Source of the DNA: Bolinopsis microptera | Lineage: Eukaryota; Ctenophora; Tentaculata; Lobata; Bolinopsidae | DNA: 64,000 bases | Direction: 5' to 3' | Assembly (NCBI RefSeq): GCF_026151205.1 | Contig: NC_087080.1 | Location: 15,261,337-15,325,336 of the forward strand | Shown: in pieces, positions 2,732 through 56,900 of the stretch | How the letters are laid out: the number at the start of each line of letters is the position of its first letter | How positions within the stretch are numbered: the first letter of the stretch is position 1 | Program-made: the position numbers and the translations under genes | The notes under the pieces: model-generated | Databases searched by the model: none | What the model was told of the DNA's origin: nothing | The model's input: the letters and a program-made list of their open reading frames with translations, nothing else

Positions 2732-5700
2732 ATGTTGAGGATTATGCCCGTGCCCAGTTCGAAATCGAACAGCAATCAACGCAACATCAACAATTCAGGT
2801 GACTTTATGAAGTTGCATGTAGGGGAATTTTATGGCTTGTTTGGTAATTTATAAATATAATACTAGTCGACACTTTTAATTAATAAAAACAGGAGTGGGG
2901 ACAAAGGATCAATTAATATAGGATTTTCCTGAAAGCTGGTGCTCAAGTCTAAACTCAATATGACACAGCGGTAATTGGATAATTACCATGGTAACAAGGT
3001 AATGGTCTCATTATCTTGGTGGTCTCATTATCTTGGTGCTCAGATAATCAGATCTCTCCCCAAAGAAACGATCAAGGATTTGATTTAACCGTGAACAAGA
3101 TGGTTCTGTAACGTAACTTATATTGAGGAACACGTCTATTCATGCGAAAATAAAGAGATAAAGAAGAATTTTCCGTAAAAATTGCAGCTGCTTATAGATT
3201 GAATAAACTAAAGTGATGAAGCTATGAATATATGACATGGTGCTTATGTACATATACATTAGCACCATGTCATCATTCTATACCCTGTATATATACAGGG
3301 TGTACCACAGAAAGTGTGATTTTTTGAGAAATGATACAAAATATTATGAAGGAGCAGTTGCTAAAGACTCTTCATCACACTGTGTCAATATATGTCGAAT
3401 TTATGCATACCAAATTTCAAGTCCCTATCAATTTTTGATTTCTCACAAATATATACTGTCACGTGTGTTATATCACGTGTATAATATCACGTGTTATACT
3501 GTCATGTGTTCAACGACAAATACAATAACACAATATTATAGCCTTCTTATTTGTGAAATTTAAATGTGACGAGTCAACGTATACCTGAAGTGGTTTGTAA
3601 TTAAATTTTTGTTGACGATGACTTTCAATTTCACCGTGGCAGTATGGGATTCTTCTTTTCTTTTTTGGGAAATGTTGTTGTTACCCGGTTTTCTTTTATT
3701 ATCTGGAGCTGGAAAATGCACGCTACCCCACTTTAAACTTGTACGATGCAGTAAACCATCTGAAATTCCGCACCTCTACCCAACCTTACATATTCAGTTC
3801 TAGTAAAATTGCAAGTTCCTGTTTCATTACAGCTTGAAGATTGTATTGCCAAGAGGTGAGAATACTAAATAATGGAAAATTTTAAGTCTACTTCAAAACA
3901 TGAAAGAGAATCTCATAAATTCATGGTTGAGGGTTAGTCTTGTCATGAACAATGACAGAGTTCTGGTCTGAATTCGGATGTTTCTACGTCAATATTTGTT
4001 TTTAAGTGTTTGCGAATGGCACTTTAACATGAATGGTTTCCAAGACCAGGGTTTTTGTATCTTGCCAAAAAGAAAAAAATAGAAGATTACAGGATACTGG
4101 TGGGGAGATGTTTTGTCGCATTTTGACAGTGATGTTTTTATAAGTCAATACTGAGTGTAGTGCATCCAGCCTCCACCTCTGCCTCTGCCGCTACCCCGCC
4201 CATCAATCATTCCAGCTCCGCTTATCCAAGATTGTACACCCTGAAGTCGAGAATGCAGTTGGAAACCTGCAGTCCTATGGTCACACTAGACCCGTGCTAT
4301 CACGTGCAAATATTGCACGTGCACTCTGTAGATATATGTGGAACTTCCTCCGGTTTTAAACCAGCTGATGCACATTGCACATATTCAACCGACCTGTAGT
4401 GATAATTTAAGACAATTACATTGATCCTCATTTTCCAAAGATTTCCCGACTTCTTCCACTTTCACTGTGATTAGCTGCAACGGTATTTAAACGATTTCGT
4501 TTAATGACGCCTAATCGAGCTTCTAGACAAATAGGCTAGCAGATGGCGTTTCCACCCCCAGGTTCAAACCCATTTTCATCATTAAGAATTTCTTTTGAGC
4601 ATGTAATTCAGGATTACTGCACAATCCCAGCTTTCCAGAATATTCTCATCAGATTTCTTCGGTAAGAATCATGACACGTTTTTGCTTCGATTATACAATG
4701 ATCTCAGAAGTCAAAAAGTCTTTTGATGCTTGAAAATAAATTTCTCCTCCTAAAATGGTAACGCAATTTTATGGGAAAACTTTTTATTGAATCCCTATCA
4801 GAAATGGAGCATCACGCCTCTTCGACCAACTTATGATAATGTTTTCAGTGGTCATGTTCATTTACACAGATTTGTCCTCTGAAACCTGCCAGGAACAATA
4901 CAACGGGTCTCCTAAATCGGGAGGTTTCAGAACCGAAAGTAAGTTTTATAAATTCTTGAGCATTCTTACCACGTGTCACAATTGTGAAAGTAAGCTCTTA
5001 ACGCAATCTCAGCCATCCTTCTCTACCTTAAACTATATGGGACATAATATTTATTGACATCCAAGCTCTTAGTCTTATAGTACGTTCGTCATCGTTGAAT
5101 TTCCGAAATAGATTGTGAAACTGTAACTGTAAAGCAAACTGTATTTCATCCATCGATGGCAAATAATACGGGCGGTTAGAATTAAGTCGTAGTTGCAATG
5201 TTGAATTTTGGTCAGATTACTGCCACAATTCCATAATTTATGTATGGGGTCCATGGATGCCCATCATATTTCATGGTTCTCAGAAAATACTGGTTTGTTA
5301 TCAAATATTAAAGTTTAAACCTAAAACCTGCAAGTCCTACTCCTAAAAGTCACGAAAATACTAATTTTGTGCGCGCACTAAACTTTTAGAAAAGTGTTGC
5401 CGGTTGGGCAAAATTATGGGAAGATAGGAATAAGTCAAGTTGACAATATTCATCGTTTGTGCGGTAGAGCAGTCGAGTTTTAGACATGGTAAAGTGCGTG
5501 GAAATTGAATAATGTCTCGATTTAATCACTGCACAGTTACTACAGCTAGGAACAGTACTATAGATCCCAGTTTTATCATGGTATATAATCAAATTAATCA
5601 TGGAACATTCTTGTAATCCTTCTGAATCACGAGAATCAATTGGCACGATTGTCTGTAACACACCTCTTCATAGATAAATGTAATAATTTTCCCAATCATC

Positions 5701-11754: not shown

Positions 11755-14178
11755 ACTTAGTTTATAGTTGCTAATCATTTCCGGTTTATTTATTGCTGTT
11801 GTATTTTTACTTTTTTCTTGTCGTTTCTATATTGTACTTTTCTATTTTTGATGTTGCAACAGGACGTGCAGTGCTGTTTTTGTTGAAATCGTGTGTCGAG
11901 GATTCCCTGGGCCCGTTTCAGAATTGAAGCAGCACACTCTCTTGGATCATCCTCGTGACAAGTAGATAGAGTCAGTCTTAAAGGGTCACAGTTAGAAGCA
12001 GTGAAAAAATCAGCTTATAGCATAACTTTTAAGTGGGACTAGGGCAGTTAGAAGCGAACACAAAGTGGCTCTCTTGTCAACCACCGCGAGTGGTATAGGA
12101 AGTGGCTCAAGACGGAACTCGGACCATCTTTTAGCAAGTGGTGATGTCAACGGTATCCATAAGGCATTTCTCGTTCATAAGGCGGGCAATGCCTTTAAAA
12201 AGTCAAAAGGTAATTTTAGATTAGCACCACCCGTACACAAAATTAGGAGCGTTTATTTTTCCGTGAAATATGAAATGATATTAATTACGAACCCAAGTGA
12301 AAGGCTGGAAAGTACAGTGCAGAAGCCTCCAAATCACAAATTGTTCAATTCAGATCAGTTCGATTTAAATAATATTGTCCGTTACTGTGCCCACAGATTT
12401 ATTTATCCCTACGACACGCGATTTTCCTTTTATAAATCTTCGGCAGAATTAAAATACACACCGGTGGTAAACTATATGTGGAGGCGACTGTGATCAAAGC
12501 CGTTTTAAACAAATAGTTTTAGAATCTATCTAAGGGCGCTCCCATGCGCCGATAAGTTCTGGTGCTATAAACTTAGTTTATAGTTGCTAATCATTTCCGG
12601 TTTATTTATTGCTGTTGTATTTTTACTTTTTTCTTGTCGTTTCTATATTGTACTTTTCTATTTTTGATGTTGCAACAGGACGTGCAGTGCTGTTTTTGTT
12701 GAAATCGTGTGTCGAGGATTCCCTGGGCCCGTTTCAGAAGCGAAGCAGCACACTCTCTTGGATCATCCTCGTGACAAGTAGATAGAGTCAGTCTTAAAGG
12801 GTCACAGTTAGAAGCAGTGAATAAATCAGCTTATAGCATAACTTTTAAGTGGGACTAGGGTAGTTAGAAGCGATCACAAAGTGGCTCTCTGTTCAGCCAC
12901 CGCGAGTGGTATAGGAAGTGGCACAGGACGGAACTCGGAGCATCTTTTAGCAAGTGGTGATGTCAACGGTATCCATAAGGCATTTCTCGTTCATAAGGCG
13001 GGCAATGCCTTTAAAAAGTCAAAAGGTAATTTTAGATTAGCACCACCCGTACACAAAATTAAGAGCGTTTATTTTTCCGTGAAATATGGAATGATATTAA
13101 TTACGAACCCAAGTGAAAGGCTGGAGAGTACAGTGCAGAAGCCTCCAAATTGTTCAATTCAGATCAGTTCGATTTAAATATTGTCCGTTACTGTGCCCAC
13201 AGATTTATTTATCCCTACGACACGCGATTTTCCTTTTATAAATCTTCGGCAGAATTAAAATACACACCGGCGGTAAACTATATGTGGAGGCGACTGTAAT
13301 CAAAGCCGTTTTAAACAAATAATTTTAGAATCTATCTAAGGGCGCTCCCATGCGCCGATAAGTTCTGGTGCTATAAACTTAGTTTATAGTTGCTAATCAT
13401 TTCCGGTTTATTTATTGCTGTTGTATTTTTACTTTTTTCTTGTCGTTTCTATATTGTACTTTTCTATTTTTGATGTTGCAACAGGACGTGCAGTGCTGTT
13501 TTTGTTGAAATCGTGTGTCGAGGATTCCCTGGGCCCGTTTCAGAAGCGAAGCAGCACACTCTCTTGGATCATCCTCGTGACAAGTAGATAGAGTCAGTCT
13601 TAAAGGGTCACAGTTAGAAGCAGTGAATAAATCAGCTTATAGCATAACTTTTAAGTGGGACTAGGGCAGTTAGAAGCGAACACAAAGTGGCTCTCTTGTC
13701 AACCACCGCGAGTGGTATAGGAAGTGGCTCAAGACGGAACTCGGACCATCTTTTAGCAAGTGGTGATGTCAACGGTATCCATAAGGCATTTCTCGTTCAT
13801 AAGGCGGGCAATGCCTTTAAAAAGTCAAAAGGTAATTTTAGATTAGCACCACCCGTACACAAAATTAAGAGCGTTTATTTTTCCGTGAAATATGGAATGA
13901 TATTAATTACGAACCCAAGTGAAAGGCTGGAGAGTACAGTGCAGAAGCCTCCAAATTGTTCAATTCAGATCAGTTCGATTTAAATATTGTCCGTTACTGT
14001 GCCCACAGATTTATTTATCCCTACGACACGCGATTTTCCTTTTATAAATCTTCGGCAGAATTAAAATACACACCGGTGGTAAACTATATGTGGAGGCGAC
14101 TGTGATCAAAGCCGTTTTAAACAAATAATTTTAGAATCTATCTAAGGGCGCTCCCATGCGCCGATAATTTCTGGTATT
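11755..14178 (+). repeat. three tandem copies of an ~806 bp unit, Helitron-like 3' end
   Basis: Unit starts (AACTTAGTTTATAG) are at about 11755, 12571 and 13377. The units are nearly identical. Copies 2 and 3 share a 7 nt and a 3 nt deletion relative to copy 1. Every unit ends with GGCGC-TCCCAT-GCGCC (5 bp stem, 6 nt loop), then 8 nt, then CTGG and T. After copy 3 the similarity stops exactly after CTGGT. A short hairpin followed at about 10 nt by CTRR|T is the 3' terminus expected of Helitrons, and head-to-tail multimers are expected from rolling-circle transposition. No Rep/helicase is present, so this would be non-autonomous. The 5' end is not diagnostic. A simple satellite array is the alternative. 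Confidence 0.6.
12065..12493 (+). pseudogene. open frame inside tandem unit, copy 1; no ATG
   Basis: Copy 1 keeps a 142-codon open frame with no ATG near its start (first usable codon GTG; upstream in-frame TAA at about 12023). It contains ASGDVNGIHKAFLVHKAG and ends in NYMWRRL. In copies 2 (12881-13177) and 3 (13687-13983) the 7 nt deletion truncates the frame at about 98 codons. Copy 2 differs by non-synonymous changes near the start. The protein is not recognised. The missing start and the frame-breaking indel argue for non-coding sequence or a decayed captured exon. Confidence 0.3.
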
Positions 14179-21585: not shown

Positions 21586-21907
21586 GTCATGTCACAGGTG
21601 TAACAGTGTGCTTGAAGCCTTATGACGTTTTATATGACTTCTTCTACTCGTTTTAACAGCTGTGTAAGTATACGGAGCCTAGAATTGAGTAGCGAATCCA
21701 GCAACCATGATCAAGGTACAGTAGGCGTGTTCCAAGAGTGCTTACTATAGTCATATCATAATATGTTGCTAATCTTTATTTCTTGAGGATTCTTAGTTGT
21801 GACCTTCTCTTGCATTTTCATGGTTATGTATCAGAACTGTACCAAATGTAGACGGTGCTTAATCTATATGATAACAAGTTCTTGCAGATCCCTCTCTCAC
21901 CATCTGC

Positions 21908-22135
21908 AATACTTACGTAGTAGTTGCAATACTTATGTATAGTAGCAATACTTACGTAGTAGTTGCAATACTTACGTATTAGTTGCAATACTTACGTAGT
22001 AGTTGCAATACTTACGTATTAGTTGCAATACTTACGTAGTAATTGCAATACTTACGTAGTAGTTGCAATACTTACGTAGTAGTTGCAATACTTACGTAGT
22101 AGTTGCAATACTTACGTATAGTAGTAGTTGCAATT
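21908..22135. repeat. 20 bp minisatellite, about 11 copies
   Basis: The unit CTTACGTAGTAGTTGCAATA is repeated head to tail, with variants TACGTATT and TATGTATAGTAG. Each unit carries the palindrome TACGTA. Confidence 0.95.
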
Positions 22136-23234: not shown

Positions 23235-23985
23235 CAATGTGACATATTCTCACGTAACATCGTGCTCGCGATGTGACATATTCTCACGTAACATCGTGCT
23301 CGCAATGTGACATATTCTCACGTATAGTAACATCGTGCTCGCGATGTGACATATTCTCACGTAACATCGTGCTCGCAATGTGACATATTCTCACGTAACA
23401 TCGTGCTCGCAATGTGACATATTCTCACGTATAGTAACATCGTGCTCGCGATGTGACATATTCTCACGTAACATCGTGCTCGCAATGTGACATATTCTCA
23501 CGTAACATCGTGCTCGCAACAATGTGACATATTCTCACGTAACATCGTGCTCGCAACAATGTGACATATTCTCACGTATAGTAACATCGTGCTCGCAACA
23601 ATGTGACATATTCTCACGTATAGTAACATCGTGCTCGCAACAATGTGACATATTCTCACGTATAGTAACATCGTGCTCGCAACAATGTGACATATTCTCA
23701 CGTATAGTAACATCGTGCTCGCAACAATGTGACATATTCTCACGTAACATCGTGCTCGCAACAATGTGACATATTCTCACGTAACATCGTGCTCGCAACA
23801 ATGTGACATATTCTCACGTATAGTAACATCGTGCTCGCAACAATGTGACATATTCTCACGTAACATCGTGCTCGCAATGTGACATATTCTCACGTAACAT
23901 CGTGCTCGCAATGTGACATATTCTCACGTAACATCGTACTCGCAATGTGACATATTCTCACGTATAGTAACATCGTGCTCGCGAG
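23235..23985. repeat. 34 bp minisatellite with two indel variants, about 20 copies
   Basis: The unit is AATGTGACATATTCTCACGT plus AACATCGTGCTCGC. It has two independent insertions: +4 (CGTATAGTAAC) and +3 (GCAACAATG). Units with both, one or neither insertion are arranged in blocks. The ~88-codon frames here come from the repeat (units of 34, 37, 38 and 41 bp) and are not genes. Confidence 0.95.
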
Positions 23986-39300: not shown

Positions 39301-42300
39301 ATCTAGATTTCACCATGATCATTTACCATAAAAAACAAACATTAAATTAACAATAAATCCACAGAAGTTAAAATCCACAGAAGTTAAAATCTAGGAATTA
39401 TTGGAAGTATTGTCCCAGGTGCTGTTAGACTGCGTATACGAGTTAGCCATGTTGTTAGTTATATGGCTCATGGGGGTGTTCATCTTCGGGACAATCATGT
39501 TCTACATTGAGCACGAGCAAAAAGACACCAAGTTCGAATCAATCATGCATTCCTGTTGGTGGAGCGTCGTTTCCATGTCAACGGTAGGTTTATGTGTTGT
39601 TTTGAAAAGCAATTATTCGTTGCACGTGCGATGATTTTACTATTCGTCCTTTTTTTTACTACACGGATTTTTGGTGCACTATTATACGTATTGTGCACGG
39701 ATTGGTGCACTTCCCTATAATCGTTAAGCCGTTTGAACTATTATATGTTGAACTATGTTGTTCTCTTGAAGAACGTTGCGTTATTCTTGACTGGTGCTGA
39801 ATTTATTTATCCGAGGCCAGAGCAGAGAGTCTAAATTTTGAGTGCAAGGAGCAATCCTTACAACTAATTTCATGCACAGTGCACACCAGTGGCGTAACGT
39901 TGCCTGTTGGCGCCCCCTGCCGAAAAGGCGCCCTCCTGTTGGCGCCCCCTCCCCTTTTGGTGCCCCTCCCTAAAATTGAACAAATTAGGTGATTTTAGAG
40001 GATACGCCGGTAAAATCTCTAAAAAAGTGTGTATCTAGAGCAAAACGCGCAGTTTTGCTAGTACTTTAGTTAAGTTTTCGAAATTGTCCCACATTCAAAC
40101 GACGATTTGGCGCCCCCCTAAGACGGCGCCCCCCTGCACAGCGGGGTCAGCAGAGCCCTTCGTTACGCCACTGGTGCACACCACGACAACATCATCATAC
40201 GTGAACAATAACCTCGTGAATTACAAGCGCACGTGCATAGTACGTCTAGCGCACGTGCAAACGTCTAGCGAGTTCTGTTCAGACAACGTGAGGTCGGTGA
40301 GAAGAAACGAAAATATAAGTATGATAATCAACGTGATTAAGTTGAACAACGCCTGCTTTGCATCATAATAGAGGACATCCAAAGCATCCGGATATTATAA
40401 ATAGAAAACATGTTGAGTTAGCTGGAGTGAGTTAGCTGGAGTGAGTTAGCTGGACCAGTGACAGTCACCGAAGTGTGGGTGAAGTGAGGTGGTCACTGTG
40501 ATTTGTGAAGTATGAAAATATGACAGTTAGATGTGAGAGATGTATTAGCCGATCCAATTGTGAGGAAGCTAGTTGTGTCCAGTGTAACATATCAAACCGT
40601 GAACCCAGTAGTGAGGAATTGCTAGTTGTGTCCGATGTTACATACCAAACCGTGAACCCAGTAGTGAGGAAGTGTCCGATGTTACATACCAAACCGTGAA
40701 CCCAGTAGTGAGGAAGCTAGTTGTGTCCAGTGTAACATATCAAACCGTGAACCCAGTAGTGAGGAAGTGTCCGATGTTACATACCAAACCGTGAACCCAG
40801 TAGTGAGGAAGTGTCCGATGTTACATACCAAACCGTGAACCCAGTAGTGAGGAAGTGTCCAGTGTAACATACCAAACCGTGAACCCAGTAGTGAGGAAGT
40901 GTCCAGTGTAACATACCAAACCGTGAACCCAGTAGTGAGGAAGTGTCCGATGTTACATACCAAACCGTGAACCCAGTAGTGAGATAGCTAGTTGTGTCCA
41001 GTGTAACATACCAAACCGTGAACCCAGTAGTGAGGAAGTGTCCGACGTTACATACCAAACCGTGAACCCAGTAGTGAGGAAGCTAATTGTGTCCGACGTT
41101 ACATATCAGAGTGGAAAGCCCAGTGTTACATACCAAACCGTGCACCCATTAGGTTGGCTATGGGGACATGTATCCCGAGACAGCACTGGGGAAAGTTGTC
41201 ACAAGTGTCTTGGTATTCTGTTCAATGGTGTTCCTCGCCCTGCCCATGACTATCATTGTATCAAAATTCAACAAAGCGTTTGAAACCCTCAAGAAGCCCA
41301 GAAGGAAAACACCTAAGGAGGACAAGTAAACGGTACGAAGATCAGAAATTTGCTGACCTTAAAGTTAAACCGTGACCTTGTTCGTGACCTTGCTGTAACT
41401 GTGCCATATATATCCTGCTTAAATATCTTTCCGAATGCGCCTGATATCTGTTGCACTTCATTTATTATCATTTTCCTAACTAAACAATTCGTTTTGATCG
41501 CACGAAAGATGCTAAAATTAGGGAGTCTAGTATTGCGAGTAAAATGTACGTCGTACATATTACCCCATAGCCCCTATAATTTAATATTTGTAGTCAGTAA
41601 AACCCCGATTTAACCCTGATTTGGGGAAAGCAAACAGCCACGGTAAATTGGGTTTCGCGGTAAATCAGATTTTTGATTGTTCATAGTTTTTTTTTTTTTT
41701 TTGTTACGGCACCCACTGACTACCGTCACAAGGTATGAGGTAGCGACCCTCCATGCGGAGTATCCTACTGGGGTCCACCTGGTTAGCATTTATACCCCAT
41801 TCCCCTGGGCTTCCAGATGATAATGTCTTGATAGACAACAGCCAAGTCGGGGTTGCCGCTCCTTTGATCACTATCAGATGATAGCAATCAGGCGAGCGAC
41901 TAACATAGTCCCTAGGGATGATTGGATTAACTTGATTGTTCATAGTGTATGAAATGCTCTCAATTAGGAGAAGAAAACAATTGTGGTAATTTGGGGTTTG
42001 GGGTAAATCGGGCGCAGTAAGTTTAGGTTTTACTGACAAAACTTAAAGTTAATATATAATATATCTATTAAGCTACAAACATATATTATATCACCGAAGT
42101 TCTCTCCATGTAGCTTTGCTTTAATGTTCATGTTTACATGTGATTTTGCTTGACATTCATGTATCACCTGCGAGTGTTGCTGTTTCAAACATAATTAAGG
42201 CCTGTCGGTCAATGATAATAACTTGACTGTTGAATATTTAACAGTAAACTTACTATTGAAGTATTGATCACTTTGAAATTACAGTGCATGGAGTGTTGAT

Positions 42301-43055
42301 TTTTCGTTAAAAGTTTAAGACAGTCTTACTATCATGCTTAAATGTTGAGTTGAATTTTAATTTGCATGTCAGCCGACCCATTAAAAACATCTCAATCATA
42401 CGCTGATGAACAACAAGTGCGTTACAGTGACGCGTCACACGCTACAATTGCTCCAGCATCTTAATACTCATACTATCGTCTAGAGTATTGTCAGGAAGAG
42501 AATATGTTAAATATGCAAGCTCAATTTAAATCTGAATGAACAATCTATTTATGTACTAGACCAGTTATATATAAGGCAGCTGTGTGACCGGCATGGTCGT
42601 GGTATCACCATTACCCGCGAATACAATGCTAAAGTAGGAGTAAAAATAGAAGATTCATAGTTAAATTGATGAGAATCTTAGATTCTGATTGGACGACAAG
42701 GCACCTGTCCGGAACTGCTATTTTGAGATCTATAATAATAATTATAAATTGCAATAATCAATTGTTATAGACAAAGATACTCTCTCAGGTGGGATACGGG
42801 GACATGTATCCAGAAACTTGGGCCGGAAAGTTGGTCGCCAGCATACTCGTCTTCGTGTCCATGATCTTTCTAGCACTTCCCATGACTATCATAGTATCTA
42901 AGTTCAACAAAGCCTTCGAAAAGTTCAGTCCAGAAAACGAAAAAAGGCAGCAGGCTCAGCAGGCGGCTCAACAGGCGGCCAAGCAGGCTCAGGAGCAGAG
43001 AAATGCAGGTTACCAACAGGTGGAAAAAGACCAAATAACTAACACGCAAACGTAG
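36390..43055 (+). CDS. Shaker-type voltage-gated K+ channel alpha subunit, two alternative 3' exons
   Basis: A six-helix Kv subunit that would tetramerise in the plasma membrane and pass K+ on depolarisation. Exons: A 36390-36512, B 36761-36904, C 37164-37247 (T1 tetramerisation domain, aa 1-117, with [20 protein letters not shown] and [19 protein letters not shown]); D 37549-37683 (S1); E 37855-37980 (S2); F 38502-38644 (S3); G 39176-39242 (S4); H 39395-39583 (S5, pore helix); then either I 41153-41329 or I' 42789-43055. All phases match: phase 0, except F|G which splits Arg252. S4 carries K249, R252, R255, R258, K261 and R264. The filter TVGYGD begins at T337. No Zn-binding HxxxxxC/CC motif is seen in T1, which favours a Kv1/Shaker-like type. 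Predicted length is 395 or 425 aa. The acceptor TTTCAG directly precedes the ATG, so further 5' exons or trans-splicing are possible. Confidence 0.9.
37065..37430. repeat. broken direct duplication around K+ channel exon C
   Basis: GATTACGAATGAACGAATCA occurs before exon C (37070) and after it (37327). ACACAACGAAAA.AAGTTAAGG with a further ~30 bp occurs at 37256 and 37388. GGTAAGAT of the true donor recurs at about 37363. This looks like a tandem duplication of the exon C region from which the second exon copy has been deleted. Confidence 0.6.
38025..38132. mobile_element. 108 bp MITE, Tc1/mariner-pogo-like
   Basis: Inverted ends CAGTAAAACCCCGATTTA are flanked by TA on both sides (38023-38024, 38133-38134), as expected for TA-targeting elements. 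It lies in the intron after K+ channel exon E. A larger relative lies at 41595-42035. Confidence 0.85.
38622..38690 (+). repeat. 36 bp duplication of K+ channel exon F end and donor
   Basis: The exon F 3' end with its donor (ATTATGCCTTTCAAAAT..AGGTAAAC) is followed 36 bp later by a diverged second copy (ATTATGCCTTTTGAAAT..AGGTAAAC). The donors are at 38645 and 38681. Reading to the second donor meets TAA at once (ATA TTG AGG TAA), so only the first gives a full channel. Confidence 0.7.
39887..40173. mobile_element. 287 bp hAT-type MITE with 8 bp target duplication
   Basis: Ends CAGTGGCGTAACG and CGTTACGCCACTG are flanked by direct copies of GTGCACAC (39879-39886 and 40174-40181). The interior is rich in GGCGCCCCC. 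It is in the intron after exon H, upstream of alternative exon I. The 94-codon frame across its right end is not a gene. Confidence 0.9.
40559..41152 (+). repeat. 44-52 bp minisatellite ending at the exon I acceptor
   Basis: About 12 units of GTTACATACCAAACCGTGAA with CCCAGTAGTGAGGAAGTGTC and CGAT. Some units carry an extra CTAGTTGT-type insert. The last partial unit (ACATACCAAACCGTGCACCC plus ATTAG) ends exactly at the 3' splice site of exon I, and earlier units have CCCAGTAG at the same position. Translated frames here ([12 protein letters not shown]... on the minus strand) are repeat artefacts. Confidence 0.9.
41153..41329 (+). CDS. K+ channel alternative terminal exon I (filter end, S6, basic tail)
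   Basis: It follows exon H in phase 0 and encodes [15 protein letters not shown]6 ([19 protein letters not shown]) and a short basic tail ([14 protein letters not shown]), then TAA. In the first 44 residues it shares 37 with exon I'. Because each exon contains its own VGYGD and stop, the two are mutually exclusive. No AATAAA was noticed close downstream. The S6 motif is ALPMT, where most Shaker-type channels have PVP. Confidence 0.9.
   Translation, partial: VGYGDMYPETALGKVVTSVLVFCSMVFLALPMTIIVSKFNKAFETLKKPRRKTPKEDK
41595..42035. mobile_element. second CAGTAAAACCCCGATT-family MITE, interrupted by a SINE
   Basis: The left end CAGTAAAACCCCGATTTA matches the 38025 element. The right end GGTTTTACTG is at 42026-42035. 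The inner parts (GGTAAATTGGG, GGGTAAATCGGG) are related. The extra length comes from a poly-T-headed insertion at 41687-41931. Confidence 0.7.
41687..41931 (-). mobile_element. SINE-like retroposon with poly-A tail and 14 bp target duplication
   Basis: On the minus strand the insert ends in a run of about 16 A. It is flanked by direct copies of TTGATTGTTCATAG (41673-41686 and 41932-41945). Poly-A plus a 14 bp target duplication means LINE-mediated retroposition. At 245 bp it is SINE-sized. Clear pol III A and B boxes were not identified, so the source RNA is unknown. The 111-codon minus-strand frame here is incidental. Confidence 0.8.
42789..43055 (+). CDS. K+ channel alternative terminal exon I' (filter end, S6, Gln/Ala-rich tail)
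   Basis: The acceptor CTCTCTCAG leads into [15 protein letters not shown]6 with the same [17 protein letters not shown] and a 45-residue tail. The tail is Gln/Ala-rich ([18 protein letters not shown]), likely helical, and ends QITNTQT before TAG. Differences from exon I in the pore-S6 part are mostly conservative (V/I, V/L, C/V), with A-L changed to W-A after the filter. AATAAA signals lie about 770 nt downstream. Transcripts using this exon must skip exon I and its poly-A site. Confidence 0.9.
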   Translation: MGYGDMYPETWAGKLVASILVFVSMIFLALPMTIIVSKFNKAFEKFSPENEKRQQAQQAAQQAAKQAQEQRNAGYQQVEKDQITNTQT

Positions 43056-47919: not shown

Positions 47920-50900
47920 ATGAACGAAGGAATCCCTGTCAGAACATTTAAACAGTCAATCAACTCTGAGGGGAGCGAGTATGAGGTAGGTCAACAGTGA
48001 ACAGAGTAATGAGAAGTTTCACTCCGCATACGTTCTCTCAGACTTGCAGTAACAAAATAATCCCTGTTATTCCAGTCGGAATCAGATTCTCCTTCATCAT
48101 TTTACATCCATACCATTATCAGAATTATACACAAAAGCTTTGTAAGTATCGGTGCTCAACGTAGGTTATTCAAACTCCCTCAATTCAAGCTTAACCAACC
48201 CTTACCATCCGCAGGAGGATGTACCGGAGATAGGGATGGTACCTGCTTTCATCATGTCCATAAACTTCATCATCGGAGCCGGGTTCTTCTCCATGCCCTA
48301 CGTGTTCTACCACGGGGGTATAATGTGGGGAGCTATGACTCTAATTTTAGTAACATTGACCCTTGTTATTACTAGTAATTGGACCCTGGAAACTTGCTCC
48401 AGAGCACAGGTAACTGCTATTTTTATAAACTTTTCTTATTTATTTGATATTCCAGCAACGTACAAAACATATTATGTACATTGTACAGTCAAAATTTTTC
48501 GAAGTTTTCGAACTGAGGATGTTTCGAATAAAAATTCGATCAGCGAGAATTTATCATTATTATAATTACATCCTCGTGATGGCTAGAAATTTATATGTAT
48601 CTATTAATGCTTTTCAAACAAAGTTACAACGAATTCTTCATGTAGTGCATCCTGGGTTTGGACAGGATATGTCCGTTTAAAATATTTCCATCACGTTACA
48701 TTACATAATTCTCAATAAATGTAATAGCTTTGTAGTGTTGTTATTAGTTTAAAACTGTGTTTTAAAACTGTGTTTTAACCACTGTGTTTTAACCAGGCTT
48801 TAGACACAGTGATCAGAGAATCGGATATTCCAGATCTCAACTTCCATGACGTCTCCATCGTTGGTAGAAGGTACGTCCTAACGTCTTAACAACTATTTAA
48901 TAACTAATCAGTACTCAGTAGGTCAAAAGTTTTAATTATAACTAATCCGTAATCAGTAGGTCAAATGATGGATAGTTGATGCCCCTACTTTCAAGTTTCA
49001 TAGTTCGAAATTTTTATACGGTCCAGTCTTTTAAAATGTTTTTTTTTGTAGGTTTACTCTGGCCATCAACTCAAACTGCCTATCGCGCGATATAACGAAT
49101 TCTATTTTCTTATTTAATTTAATTAATTGATTTATTCTGCTGAGTATATAAGTTTTATCTTAATAGTGGTGTTACTTAAACTTAGATTTTTATTATTCCT
49201 ACAGGAATAACACCTTTGGTAGTGTCAACTCAAGGACCAGACTGTTAAAGCCTAAATATGAGATAACAGCTGCCAGGAAGTTTGAGTTTACAGAGCTGAT
49301 GGAGGTATTCTTTGGGAAACCCGGCCGGATTATTACTGCTTCTTTGATTATTGTGAGTTTTCTGTATCGGTTGGATTATTACTGCTTCTTTGATTATTGT
49401 GAGTTTTCTGTATCGGTTGGAATATTACTGCTTCTTTGATTATTGTGAGTTTTCTGTATCGGTTGGAATATTACTGCTTCTTTGATTATTGTGAGTTTTC
49501 TGTATCGGTTGGGTTATCACTGCTTCTTTGATTATTGTAAGTTTTCTGTATCGGTTGGAATATTACTGCTTCTTTGATTATTGTGAGTTTTCTGTATCGG
49601 TTGGAATATTACTGCTTCTTTGATTATTGTGAGTTTTCTGTATCGGTTGGATTATTACTGCTTCTTTGATTATTGTGAGTTTTCTGTATCGGTTGGAATA
49701 TTACTGCTTCTTTGATTATTGTGAGTTTTCTGTATCGGTTGGAATATTACTGCTTCTTTGATTATTGTGAGTTTTCTGTATCGGTTGGAATATTACTGCT
49801 TCTTTGATTATTGTGAGTTTTCTGTATCGGTTGGAATATTACTGCTTCTTTGATTATTGTGAGTTTTCTGTATCGGTTGGAATATTACTGCTTCTTTGAT
49901 TATTGTAAGTTTTCTGTATCGGTTGGAATATTACTGCTTCTTTGATTATTGTGAGTTTTCTGTATCGGTTGGAATATTACTGCTTCTTTGATTATTGTGA
50001 GTTTTCTGTATCGGTTGGATTATTACTGCTTCTTTGATTATTGTGAGTTTTCTGTATCGGTTGGAATATTACTGCTTCTTTGATTATTGTGAGTTTTCTG
50101 TATCGGTTGGAATATTACTGCTTCTTTGATTATTGTGAGTTTTCTGTATCGGTTGGAATATTACTGCTTCTTTGATTATTGTAAGTTTTCTGTATCGGTT
50201 GGAATATTACTGCTTCTTTGATTATTGTAAGTTTTCTGTATCGGTTGGATTATTACTGCTTCTTTGATTATTGTGAGTTTTCTGTATCGGTTGGATTATT
50301 ACTGCTTCTTTGATTATTGTGAGTTTTCTGTATCGGTTGGAATATTACTGCTTCTTTGATTATTGTGAGTTTTCTGTATCGGTTGGAATATTACTGCTTC
50401 TTTGATTATTGTGAGTTTTCTGTATCGGTTGGAATATTACTGCTTCTTTGATTATTGTAAGTTTTCTGTATCGGTTGGAATATTACTGCTTCTTTGATTA
50501 TTGTAAGTTTTCTGTATCGGTTGGATTATTACTGCTTCTTTGATTATTGTGAGTTTTCTGTATCGGTTGGAATATTACTGCTTCTTTGATTATTGTGAGT
50601 TTTCTGTATCGGTTGGAATATTACTGCTTCTTTGATTATTGTAAGTTTTCAGTATCGGTTGGAATATTACTGCTTCTTTGATTATTGTGAGTTTTCTGTA
50701 TCGGTTGGAATATTACTGCTTCTTTGATTATTGTGAGTTTTCTGTATCGGTTGGAATATTACTGCTTCTTTGATTATTGTGAGTTTTCTGTATCGGTTGG
50801 ATTATTACTGCTTCTTTGATTATTGTGAGTTTTCTGTATCGGTTGGAATATTACTGCTTCTTTGATTATTGTGAGTTTTCTGTATCGGTTGGATTATCAC

Positions 50901-53900
50901 TGCTTCTTTGATTATTGTGAGTTTTCTGTATCGGTTGGAATATTACTGCTTCTTTGATTATTGTAAGTTTTCTGTATCGGTTGGATTATTACTGCTTCTT
51001 TGATTATTGTGAGTTTTCTGTATCGGTTGGATTATTACTGCTTCTTTGATTATTGTGAGTTTTCTGTATCGGTTGGATTATTACTGCTTCTTTGATTATT
51101 GTGAGTTTTCTGTATCGGTTGGATTATTACTGCTTCTTTGATTATTGTGAGTTTTCTGTATCGGTTGGATTATTACTGCTTCTTTGATTATTGTGAGTTT
51201 TCTGTATCGGTTGGATTATTACTGCTTCTTTGATTATTGTGAGTTTTCTGTATCGGTTGGATTATTACTGCTTCTTTGATTATTGTGAGTTTTCTGTATC
51301 GGTTGGATTATTACTGCTTCTTTGATTATTGTGAGTTTTCTGTATCGGTTGGATTATTACTGCTTCTTTGATTATTGTGAGTTTTCTGTATCGGTTGGAA
51401 TATTACTGCTTCTTTGATTATTGTGAGTTTTCTGTATCGGTTGGAATATTACTGCTTCTTTGATTATTGTGAGTTTTCTGTATCGGTTGGATTATTACTG
51501 CTTCTTTGATTATTGTGAGTTTTCTGTATCGGTTGGATTATTACTGCTTCTTTGATTATTGTGAGTTTTCTGTATCGGTTGGAATATTACTGCTTCTTTG
51601 ATTATTGTGAGTTTTCTGTATCGGTTGGATTATTACTGCTTCTTTGATTATTGTGAGTTTTCTGTATCGGTTGAGTTATTACTGCTTCTTTGATTATTGT
51701 GAGTTTTCTGTATCGGTTGAGTTAAGTTAGAAAGTGGACGAATCTCATTTGGAGCTCTGTTCCGCTGAGTAATTTTAATAAATTCACGTTTTTTCTGTAT
51801 CATGACGATTATTAATCGCAACTAAATGATTCATCAATAAATTATTGGTTTTACATAGTTAATTGTCTAAAACTAATTTTTCTTTAGGTATACCTGCTGG
51901 TTACGCTATGTGCATACGCTACAATATTCGCTTCTACCTGGTCTCTGGTAATACCGTACAATACCTCCATCCACTCTCTCGGCCTGTGTAATCTATCTGA
52001 CTACGAGGGGCTGCTACCTGGGGGAGACTGTCTCAACTCTTACAGGCAATTAAAACTAATTAATTAATTAAGTTAATTAATTAAATAAAGTAACTACTAA
52101 TTTACTAACTGACAGGCAAGTAATTACTTTCCATTTAAGTTATGACAGATCTTCTGAATCGCAGAGGGCTAAAGTGAATGAAGTACAACTACATGGTGAT
52201 AAGTTGTGCATGTTTTCTTTCTATTTCTGTATCAGACTACCAGAAATACTGCTGACACGCTTTGTCTCCTCAGATTTTCAGTCTTGATATTTGCGTGCAT
52301 AGTGATACCAATATCAGCCATGGACGTGAGCACTATGAAGCCCTTCCAGATAGCTCTTAGCTTTATCATGCAGGTAAAAAGTAAAATCTTCTTTAGAAAT
52401 AAGATTGATAGATCATAATAAAGGGTTCGCTGTACTTCATTGCACTTCTTTAGTGTTTAACAGCTTATATAAATATTATTATTATATTCGAATTAGAGAA
52501 TTAGAGGTTGGAGCTGTATATATCCTTGGAGAACCCGGTGGATGTCCTTGCTGTACGGCAGTGTTAAACAAGGAACTGAAACCGAGGGGTTCCGTTCAGG
52601 CCCTTCACACTTTGTTTCTGTCTAGTTCTTATGTACCGTCACAATAGTGACTTTAATATATTAAATTTTTTCAGTTCACAATAGGTGTAGGTATAATACA
52701 CTGTATATACGGGCTCGCTACGGGTAACATTGCCGACGGTGAGCATCAACCCCATCCTACACGCTTTTTCGCCTTTGATTTCACAAGTAAGATTTATTTT
52801 TTTCAATGTTTTAAAGTCGACGCTTGATAATATATATTATACATAAGTTTAAATAAATATCTTTGGTGTTCTACTATAAAATCTAACTCGATGAATATCC
52901 AATATTTAGCTTTTGCACCAAAACCTCGCACAATTACAACTATAGGGTGTACCACAGAAAGTGTGATTTTTTGAGAAATGATACAAAATATCATGAAGGA
53001 GCAGTTGCTAAAAACTCTTCATCACATTGTGTCAATATATTGTGTCGAAAAACTATTAAAGTGGAAGAAATTCACACTTTGTGGTACACCCTGTATACCC
53101 ACTACCCAGGTTTCGTGAACATGGTACCGATTGTGGTATACTCCCAAGTTCTACACGAGGGTATCCCCATGATAGCGCAACCTGCCCGGGACAAGAAAAA
53201 TCTACACAAGCTGTTCGCTGGTGCCCTGTCTTTCGCTTGTAAGTCTTAACTTTACTTGTCAGTTTGTTCGCTGGTGCCCTGTCTTTCGCTTGTAAGTCTT
53301 AACTTTACTTGTTTGCATGTTGTATCGCATTATTTCACGGGACCTGTGACTTTAATGATATCAGTGACTGATATATATTTGGCGTATGTTCTAAAATTAG
53401 ACCAAATTTCCTGATATCTCCTCAAGTATCACATTTGAGTTCAACGGAAAAAATAAAGTGAAAATTACATTACTCGTTATCTTATCTCTGCTATCATGAC
53501 AGGCTTTATGTAATTTATTGCTTTAAACTTCAAGCAGACTGTCATCACGCTTCACCTTACCAAGGGCTTTACTTTCATTTGAAATTCGGAAAAAGAAAAG
53601 AGTTCTCTTTAGATATTTGAAGTTCCATTTCTAATGATACTGGGTGCGCCATCGTGGATTTTCTAAACCTTTATCTGCTATGATGAAGCCTTGTGCCGTT
53701 GTTATTTTTTAAAATTTATTAAGATAAGACTAAAAAAGTACTAAAGTTCGTGTTGAAGTGCCATGCATCGCATTCCACGCCCTCGGCCTCATGTGAATAT
53801 TAAATAATCAACAAGGCCTTTTATCCTGTCGATTACGTGACACTGTCGCAAATAGAATTTAAGTCACACAAGCTGTTTCCAGTGCAAGTCAGTGACGATA

Positions 53901-56900
53901 TAACGTTATTATTGAGCCGGGACAAAATGCTGCCTTTTAGTTCGATACAATTTCGAATCGACCAGATATCTTGGTTAAGGATTTCCTTATTCTAAATCAT
54001 GCAGACTGTTGAATGCTCTACTTCTCGTCGCCAGGAACGCGCATTCAAAATCCTTGGTAGATGGCTGTTTTTCTGTTTTACACAGGAGAGCAATGGAACC
54101 GTCTTATGATACGATTTTACAACGGTTTTCGGACGACCACGCGCCAAACTCCTAACTAAGCCGTTTTGATTAAGCAACCACTAACCTCCACAATCAAGAT
54201 TTCTAGAGTAGACCCCGTGCGTTTCAGTCACTCTGTCCCCGTATCTCTTCCTTTTTAGGTAGCACTTTTGACCATAATTCTGCATTAAACCCACGGACTT
54301 ACAGTCGTCAGTTTCGCTGCATTTTGACAAGCAGTCCATCATGGAAGGTGAATTCGCTATCCAGGATATATCGTTTCCATAGAAATCAGTATCCTTCTTC
54401 GTGCATATATCTTGTGTAAAATATAAGTTATTTATCCAATTTTGAGCTATGATTGAACGAAATACCAATAAATTCTAATTTACATCAAATTAATATATTT
54501 TTTCCTTACCGTAAAACGGATCATTCGAAGATGGTGGCGGCATAAACACCAGCATGATGAATACATGACAAATTTTCTCCATCGTCTTGGGACTTGGTTG
54601 CTATTTGTAAGGAAGATAAATTAGAGTATTGTCTCTAAAAGCCATAAAAAGCCACTACAGAGAAATCTTGCATAGCTGAACGTATAAATTATATGATGGT
54701 TCACCATGACATTTCCGATTTTGATGTCAAAGTAAGATCTTCTTTAACAAGATCTTCTTGTTTAAGCCTGCATAACCAATTTAAACAAATGAGCAAGACT
54801 GTGTACTATAATAGGGGGAAGCCAAGGGGTATTTTGGGGTATTATGGGGATTGGGGAATGGCTTAATGGATTTTGGAAATCCCCCATAATAAAGTCCCCA
54901 TAATACCCCAAAAGTACCCAAAATTATTGTAAATATTCATCGTGGCCAACTGTTTATGTTTTTCACGAACCAGTTTCAGTCCATCGTTCAGTGCATGTTT
55001 TAGTTGAAATTTAAGTCTGCCTAGATTATAAATTAGAGCAAAAAAACATATTTTTTAGACTCAACAGCCAAATTTCTGAACTGTTCCTCTGCTCATGCTT
55101 ATGACTTATAGTTTTTAAATTATTATATTCCCCTTTATATCCACCAGCGGGCTATATTTTGTCTTCTGACCTCTCGCAGCCCGATGTAACAAGACACAGT
55201 GCGCGTCCAGCCCGCTTAAAATACAGCACGCGAGCAGATGATACTTAAAGTGACAAGTAACAATACAGCCCGGAGCACTTTCACTTTCAAACAAATTTTT
55301 GGGGCCTAAACTATTAAACTTTAACTATAACAAGACACGTACACCATATTTATGTCACTAACACTACATCTTAATGGTTCCCACGGCTCAAGGAATGCAC
55401 TACCTATATCACTTATCGGCCTCAGTCCCTATACCACGCAGTGCAATATGATTGGCTGACATTGAACACGTGACGTGTTACCATGGTTGCAACAATTAGT
55501 GGCGACTTTAAGTCTAGAGTTGATGTTTATACAGTATACACCATACACGCCCCATTGTTTATTTCAACTGATTTCCATTTCCATAATTGCTCAAGCTATT
55601 TCGAGTAATAATTCTTGAAATTTTAGGCCGGAATTTTACGTGTAATTCTATTGTGTTCCCGAAAGAAATTTTGCCCTGTTTTTTGTTTTGAAACTATACC
55701 GTCTACTACTAATATTGATGTGATGAATTTGATCTTTTACTCAACGTAAAATATATATAATATATATTCAATGTCCCTTCGTGCTTCGTTATCTTGAGCT
55801 CTCTTGGTAACTGCAGATGGCATTCAGTTTATAGTTACACAGTTGTTAAAGTTATGCCGAGCACTCTTTTTGATAGTTTAAGCTGAATTTATTGTTTGAC
55901 CGGCCCTACACACTGTGTACTGATTAACTCTCATTGTACATCTGACGTGTTGTCATGGTAACAGGAATTCTGTGTTACTCGTAGTATGGATTGACGGAGA
56001 TACACAATTTTTAATCTATGTTAATGATTAACATCCCGTTGACTGTTCATCAATTTGGTTGGTGTGTAATACCATTATAGTACGTGGGATTTCAATTCTT
56101 CTATTGTGTTATATAATCAGTAATGTTGCCCTGTTCTGCATCTTACACCAAAGGCTAAAGCATGATTTTCTATTAAATTTGCAGCTTTAGTTCGAAATCT
56201 TTTACTTCTATTTGCTATGATTGTTGAAAACTGTAAAGCGCCCGCTCATGGATATACACGATATCATTCCTCGCCATGAGGGCGGAACTATCGTATAGCA
56301 CTCGGGCCCGTTGGGCCCTCCGTGCTATACGAAAATATCTCCGCCTCGGGCTAGCGCCCTCGTGGAGATATAAAATATTGCACGCGCACGCGCGTGCAAT
56401 ATTTAGTACCGCCCTCAAGGCTGCGGTGATATCTATATATACTCATGGATCAGGTAACATTCCCGTCTAAAACATTTTAGCCCCGGGGCCGGGTTAAAGA
56501 ATTGGAATACCTCAAGGAACCGATCGGAAACAAATTTGGCTTGGGTAGAAATTGTAACTATGGAGTATGATGCAGTTTTGCGCAATCGACCACGCTTTTT
56601 TTGGCGCTTTTGCGACTTCGAAATAAAACTTTGGCCTCTGATTAAAGTCAAAAGCCACACTTGGGCATAAAGATATCCAGCATTATCACATTTAGGGGTG
56701 TACAGCATAATTAGGACATTTAGGGGTGTACAGCATAATTAGGACATTAGTTATGAGGCTGCACCTATTTGCACTCTCGTGATAATATTAATAGCAATTA
56801 CAGCACTTTAAATCAAAATAACTCGGTTTCTGATTGGAGTTAAGAGCTTAAATTGGGCAGTTAAATGATCATACTGAGTTTCAACGGGGTAAAGGCATCA

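Follow-up and report, generated by a model that had tools for sequence, protein, structure and literature searches.

A 52-copy tandem array across a predicted exon end and its 5' splice site in an amino acid transporter gene of the ctenophore Bolinopsis microptera: a long mirage, with similar arrays at other genes

In the human gene IFI6 (6-16, G1P3), a minisatellite reportedly provides multiple splice donors, as described by Turri, Cuin and Porter in 1995. Two of its downstream repeat units are reported to be used, which leads to three mRNAs (PMC4526556). In amphioxus, tandem duplications of exon-intron boundaries have been described as mirages, which vary in length and reportedly leave splicing undisturbed (PMC3087553, PMC3902484). 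Tandem repeats at exon-intron boundaries, with units of ~30 bp on average, are also reported from human segmental duplications (PMC2812944), and tandem dual-specific splice sites from the gene UBC (PMC10809524). Here, we analysed a stretch of 64,000 nt from the genome of the ctenophore Bolinopsis microptera (assembly GCF_026151205.1, contig NC_087080.1, positions 15,261,337 to 15,325,336, forward strand), hereafter called the window. It carries a 46-bp array with 52 copies of the end of an exon, designated exon C, and of its 5' splice site, in a gene of the amino acid transporter family (Aa_trans). Exon boundaries and splice sites are predictions from sequence throughout.

The array is a real and long mirage and belongs to a known kind, and the same genome has comparable arrays at several other genes unrelated to this one. 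Like the amphioxus mirages (Adh3, TnC, the globins BflGb6 and BflGb9, and PGBD5), which lie on the donor or the acceptor side, it is a minisatellite-like duplication of a boundary. Its units run across the predicted boundary, from the 25-nt exon end over the donor into the start of the intron, and bear the marks of concerted evolution, with a 98% match over 52 copies of 46 bp and a closer resemblance between neighbours than after shuffling of the unit order. Units of 10–72 bp are reported for the Adh3 mirage, and the BflGb6 haplotypes feature 3 and 6 copies of 150–160 bp, compared to 52 copies of 46 bp here. The host is a ctenophore, whereas the described mirages are from cephalochordates. No report of mirages in ctenophores was found in that part of the matching papers which the literature search covered. 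In the available part of the Hormiphora genome paper, 13% of the genome is marked by Tandem Repeats Finder (TRF) and the word minisatellite is not used.

As in IFI6, a minisatellite supplies multiple splice donors; unlike in IFI6, where downstream donors are reported to be used, the downstream donors of the transporter array would break the reading frame. The repeats in human segmental duplications share the minisatellite expansion at a boundary, but are discussed as forming new introns, whereas the transporter array lengthens a pre-existing one. A tandem array of splice signals is also present in UBC. There, however, AGGT sites act as donor or acceptor at the borders of coding monomers, while the transporter copies are non-coding and have a T before the GT (ATT/GTGAGT), without the AG of dual-specific sites. 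A preliminary description of this locus, based on the sequence, had stated that no family like it was known. This claim does not hold, given the amphioxus mirages (PMC3087553, PMC3902484), the IFI6 minisatellite and the similar arrays in the same genome.

TRF located the array at 49327–51719, with a period of 46, 52.0 copies and a 98% match. When counted in register, the 52 units occupy 49328–51719 and exact period-46 identity persists for 5 nt more, up to 51724. The 21-nt intron part of each unit opens with the donor hexamer, which yields 52 donors at positions 49353 + 46k. The hexamer is GTGAGT in 44 units and GTAAGT in eight, and this G/A exchange at +3 is the sole change within it. Six of the 46 columns vary (1, 2, 3, 7, 28 and 36), resulting in seven unit types with a mean pairwise difference of 1.0 per 46 bp. 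The order of the units is non-random: adjacent units differ at 42 positions, compared to a mean of 50.9 after shuffling, and 34 of 2000 shuffles were as low. TRF and the in-register count bear out the preliminary description with respect to the array at 49328–51724 and to an exon end with a GTGAGT or GTAAGT donor multiplied 52 times at 46-bp spacing; the exon part of unit 1 is present as described there, but is 25 nt long instead of ~24 nt.

The assembly (264.65 Mb, 232 contigs) was searched for dispersed copies of the unit by a method that skips very common words and scores the best candidates only. A single candidate region was obtained, and with a query of 201 bp, all of the 50 listed matches are at the transporter locus. 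Occurrence of the unit elsewhere in the genome, as in a dispersed repeat family, was thus not found among the matches listed. A search of the assembly for COX1 gave no match. The RNA fold of six array units was no better than that of shuffled sequences (z = 0.79), and the idea that the donors are hidden by RNA structure was rejected on this result.

The product of the seven exons A to G matches Aa_trans with an E value of 1.4e-12, obtained with a query in which one residue was shifted at either end. With donor 1 joined to position 51888, the seven-exon model is free of stops in one frame. Reading on from donor 1 leads to the first in-frame stop after 84 nt, within unit 3. Donor 2 joined to exon D results in a stop within exon D, and donors 3 to 52 result in the stop in unit 3, at residue 77 of the reading of exons C and D. 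Frames were computed for donors 1–7, 51 and 52, and the outcome extends to the rest because the unit-3 stop lies upstream of them. Both the stop in the third unit and the restriction of the full predicted protein to donor 1, since donors 2–52 all lead to a stop, agree with what had been noted before. Counted from donor 1, the intron between exons C and D measures 2535 nt; counted from donor 52, it measures 189 nt (51699 to 51887). The remaining introns measured in the gene, five in number and including the 334-nt intron upstream of exon C, range from 228 to 387 nt. At exon G, a second duplication was found, the second copy of which is identical across 48 nt. Of the seven donors predicted in the transporter stretch, two are thus duplicated. 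The predicted donor of exon D (CAG/GCAATT), from window position 52046, opens a predicted GC-AG intron.

As a control for the boundaries, a close paralogue was sought by a protein search of the genome, but all seven matches with E ≤ 0.01 were at the transporter locus. No solved relative of the transporter was found below E = 0.18. Two candidate peptides at ~59.4–59.9 kb were considered as later exons of the gene. They were left out of the model because they had no Pfam match alone and because the Aa_trans score, 47.4 bits without them, dropped to 41.5 bits when they were added. Coordinates are given in Table 1.

Table 1. Predicted features of the window, followed by arrays at exons elsewhere in the genome
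Feature	Position in window	Strand	Repeat	Characteristics
Transporter stretch, exons A–G	48215..53238	+		Seven exons, open in one frame, 305 residues
Exon C, Aa_trans gene	49205..49352	+		148 nt; array unit 1 begins with its last 25 nt
52 x 46-bp array	49328..51719	+	46 bp x 52	Unit of 25 nt exon end and 21 nt intron with donor; period exact to 51724
Donor 1	49353..49358	+		ATT/GTGAGT; sole donor of 52 in frame with exon D
Distal array end	51628..51728	+		Unit 51/52 junction matches 3' flank; putative mark of founder duplication, microhomology TTA
Exon D	51888..52045	+		Acceptor TTTCTTTAG/GTATACC; predicted donor CAG/GCAATT
Second donor duplication, same gene	53212..53312	+	53 bp x 1.9	Unit contains the exon G end with the donor GTAAGT
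Ion-channel exon	42771-43055	+		PF07885, 2.2e-8
PAN-domain open frame	54184-54474	-		PF14295, 1.3e-7
Dynein exon array			50 bp x 3	AAA_8 E = 1.7e-5, narrowly missing the Pfam cut-off; PDB 0.003
ADAM-like exon array			44 bp x 8	PDB 5e-12; Reprolysin 0.0012, below cut-off
Sushi exon array			54 bp	44 donors listed
Second Sushi exon array			79 bp x 1.9	
Second dynein exon array			~55 bp x 4-5	PDB 7.9e-7; longer query without dynein family in Pfam
LMF1_C exon array			65 bp x at least 7	E = 1.7e-28
Array at 142-residue open frame			36 bp x at least 43	No Pfam match
CDK1 exon, acceptor-side array				PDB 5e-40, ungapped over join
LMF exon (L054), acceptor-side array			14 bp, ~40 copies	Same exon as the 65-bp donor array
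C8-domain exon, donor-side array				E = 8.9e-9
Exon with acceptor-side array				No Pfam match

Where units 51 and 52 meet, the sequence is GAGTTA/TTACTG; after unit 52 it is GAGTTA/AGTTAG, and on the exon side before the unit GGATTA/TTACTG. The simplest founder would be one 46-bp tandem duplication with TTA at both ends, joined at this 3-bp microhomology, which would have copied the 5' splice site of exon C and the 20–25 nt before it. The array may then have been expanded to 52 copies and homogenised by slippage, conversion or unequal exchange. The similarity of neighbouring units and the 3'-flank sequence kept in the last junction fit such a local duplication.

Taken together, we consider it probable that the array is a mirage, a minisatellite across an exon-intron boundary, which was seeded by microhomology and expanded, and which the gene tolerates since donor 1 is chosen through exon definition. 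The second donor duplication in the same gene, the donor-spanning arrays at other coding exon ends, the alignment of the ADAM-like protein and the undisturbed splicing reported for amphioxus mirages also speak for this reading. The founder event, the mode of growth, the use of donor 1 and exon definition as its reason are those parts that we infer. The array would be tolerated since its copies lie downstream of the true exon end. Exon C would be defined across the exon, between its acceptor and donor 1 as the closest good donor, while the remaining 51 copies would be removed as intron. Donor 1 is judged the likely, though not safe, choice because the seven exons read are otherwise predicted to form an open frame. 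When minigenes carried two strong donors of equal quality and introns of 365 nt, splicing relied exclusively on the upstream one (Carranza 2022). The same work associates exon definition with the upstream of equal strong donors and intron definition with the downstream of near-equal ones. Exon C, with 334 nt of intron upstream and 2535 nt downstream, fits exon definition and use of the upstream donor.

Several points weigh against this reading. The 189-nt intron counted from donor 52 fits intron definition, which favours a downstream donor, and the other five measured introns are short as well. The donors of the cited minigenes are reported to be strong (CAG/guaagu), and weakening of both led mostly to skipping of the larger exons (Carranza 2022); the exon side of the array donors is ATT, unlike the CAG of the minigenes. 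Human IFI6 is reported to employ downstream repeat units as donors (PMC4526556), and for this reason donor use is not readable from anatomy. Of the three readings put forward in the preliminary description (a decoy array resolved in favour of the first site, a poison-splicing switch and a tolerated expansion), the last, with the 5'-most donor prevailing, would still be the best, in line with Carranza 2022.

Outside the window, 21 listed places were read, all of which had been picked for donor words and hence show recurrence, not frequency. Word searches yielded nine of them as GTAAGT triplets, seven as AGGTAAGT triplets (two share one unit) and five by the single word AGGTAAGT (its four clusters plus a pair with wider spacing). 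At six of the 21 places, a donor-spanning array was observed at the end of a coding exon, and a seventh, at an LMF1_C exon, within the stretch examined for a neighbouring array (Table 1). For the ADAM-like exon, the join past donor 1 gives a protein whose alignment to a solved relative contains a gap of two residues close to the joining point. The two Sushi exons matched in Pfam with values of 0.002 (below the cut-off) and 8e-7. A script resolved the frame in eight of ten cases, but not in a dynein (L052) and the LMF case (L054). A boundary was spanned or abutted otherwise by four of the 21 listed arrays, as judged by eye (CDK1, LMF, the C8-domain exon and an exon without a Pfam match; Table 1), and no exon end was shown for the remaining 11 donor-word arrays read.

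Additional duplications were observed outside the window. The CDK1 intron (L016–L020) consists nearly entirely of a 41-bp repeat, the units of which include the acceptor. In a dynein coding exon, just before a donor array, a tandem duplication of 171 bp (57 codons) was found (L067, 260–586, 1.9 copies, 100% match). On the minus strand of L055, at ~344–474, a donor may be part of a small duplication (47 bp x 2, 28 bp x 2.2).

A further possibility is that tandem duplications in this genome preferentially start at, or find refuge in, 5' splice sites, such that a noticeable share of coding exons would end in 2–50 near-identical donor copies, of which the spliceosome would routinely take the first. 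We put this forward tentatively and regard it as somewhat doubtful. The competing explanation, to which we give not quite an even chance, is an incidental location: minisatellites are dense and some would land on splice sites without preference. It is compatible with the tolerated mirage proposed above and competes with a preference for donors only.

Genome-wide word counts were made for three copies at short spacing, with the reversed word as control; overlapping units are counted and long arrays weigh heavily. Counts were 17071 compared to 3119 for GTAAGT, 1380 compared to 12 for AGGTAAGT, 1294 compared to 185 for AGGTGAGT and 350 compared to 95 for the acceptor word TTTTCAGG. For AGGTAAGT, the sole word calibrated in this way, single occurrences were 10758 compared to 7965. 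The resulting excess of 115-fold for triplets and just 1.35-fold for single words argues against an incidental location. The same applies to clusters with a spacing of up to 100 bp among the places listed, which comprise the first 100 or so: four of 51 AGGTAAGT places on the plus strand were clustered, compared to one of 98 for the reversed word on both strands (p = 0.047), and three of the four are at coding exon ends. Nine of the 51 places, however, follow one another at distances of ~1 kb in a single run and each entered the count separately. The duplication of two of the seven donors in the transporter gene likewise speaks against incidence. Splice words were also counted in duplicated sequence, but this count was discarded, given that the copies of an array are not independent of each other.

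Smaller samples yielded a different picture. Twenty kinase exon ends were chosen from 136 matches by partial domain match, before the flanks were seen. Three ran on without a donor being found and 17 were usable, with the donor assigned by eye and uncertain in three. A donor-spanning duplication was present at one of the 17 (L084, 39 bp), and at three a tandem repeat starts ~13 nt or less downstream, one of these seen by eye only. Among 20 kinase exon starts, none had a spanning duplication or a near repeat; two had repeats more than 200 nt away. The comparison of ends and starts (4/17 and 0/20) gives p = 0.036 with a distance that was set afterwards, and p = 0.088 for the three cases found by the script alone. 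The spanning case by itself (1/17 compared to 0/20) is not significant (p = 0.46), as would be expected of an incidental location. In six arbitrary 10-kb stretches, GTRAGT was found in none of 36 arrays with a period of at least 10, with 1.0 expected from shuffles; in the window without the two arrays of the transporter gene, it was found in two of 43 (2.3 expected). Pooling gave four of 81 arrays (3.6 expected) from 124 kb, of which 64 kb are the window including both transporter arrays. These values are in line with an incidental location, as is the fraction of listed donor-word arrays for which no exon end was shown (11/21). A bias of array seeding to donors is thus suggested by the word counts, but not borne out by the small samples.

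With respect to function, the array could act as a poison-splicing rheostat, in which some transcripts use donors 2–52, acquire a premature stop and decay, so that array length tunes transporter output. That all of these donors lead to a stop and are nearly invariant over 52 copies fits such a role, as do the reported use of downstream repeat donors in IFI6 (PMC4526556) and the 189-nt intron left by the last donor, a setting that favours downstream donors. Homogenisation alone can, however, give donor identity, and similar arrays with other unit lengths at unrelated genes point to a general mutation process instead of a gene-specific switch. We regard the rheostat as unlikely, and nothing was found to support the repeat-length-tunable switch listed in the preliminary description.

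The array may also be kept for a positive role of its RNA, e.g. recruitment of U1 that boosts splicing or blocks premature intronic polyadenylation. Every copy contains a GTGAGT or GTAAGT donor, which we take to be U1-compatible and which varies only at +3. Variation is low across the whole unit, however, so that donor conservation is not special, and the six-unit fold is no better than that of shuffles; such a role is considered highly improbable. Tandem arrays are generally prone to error in assemblies. An array that is an artefact, or was collapsed or inflated by the assembler, is the least credible explanation in view of seven unit types in non-random order, the other arrays of the same kind with different units in the genome and the PacBio libraries made in the Bolinopsis genome project, if the assembly is the published one (PMC10232365).

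Choice among equal donors has been tested with artificial pairs (Carranza 2022), and this locus offers 52 near-identical, evenly spaced natural donors. Their misuse would appear as a frameshift, and the genome has further arrays of other lengths. Exclusive use of donor 1 in transcripts would be strong evidence for selection across the exon in a lineage far from vertebrates; if other donors are used, a length-tunable output becomes plausible. The ctenophore host carries the idea of mirages beyond cephalochordates. Should donors indeed be preferred, the genome as a whole would amount to a natural experiment in how donors are chosen, and the arrays would be a source from which introns arise anew.

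Further repeats were observed in the window. Arrays at 21905–22122, 23235–23964 and 40575–41105 have units with donor-like words on the minus strand. At 12026–13983, three open frames with a near-identical reading (LLSGTR...) start 816 and 806 bp apart, a period beyond that of the TRF run. An element resembling a miniature inverted-repeat transposable element, with inverted ends GTGTACCACA...TGTGGTACAC, was recognised by eye at ~52946–53105 and stops just before the acceptor of exon G. A reading similar to this element, also identified by eye, is held by the open frame at 3228–3563.

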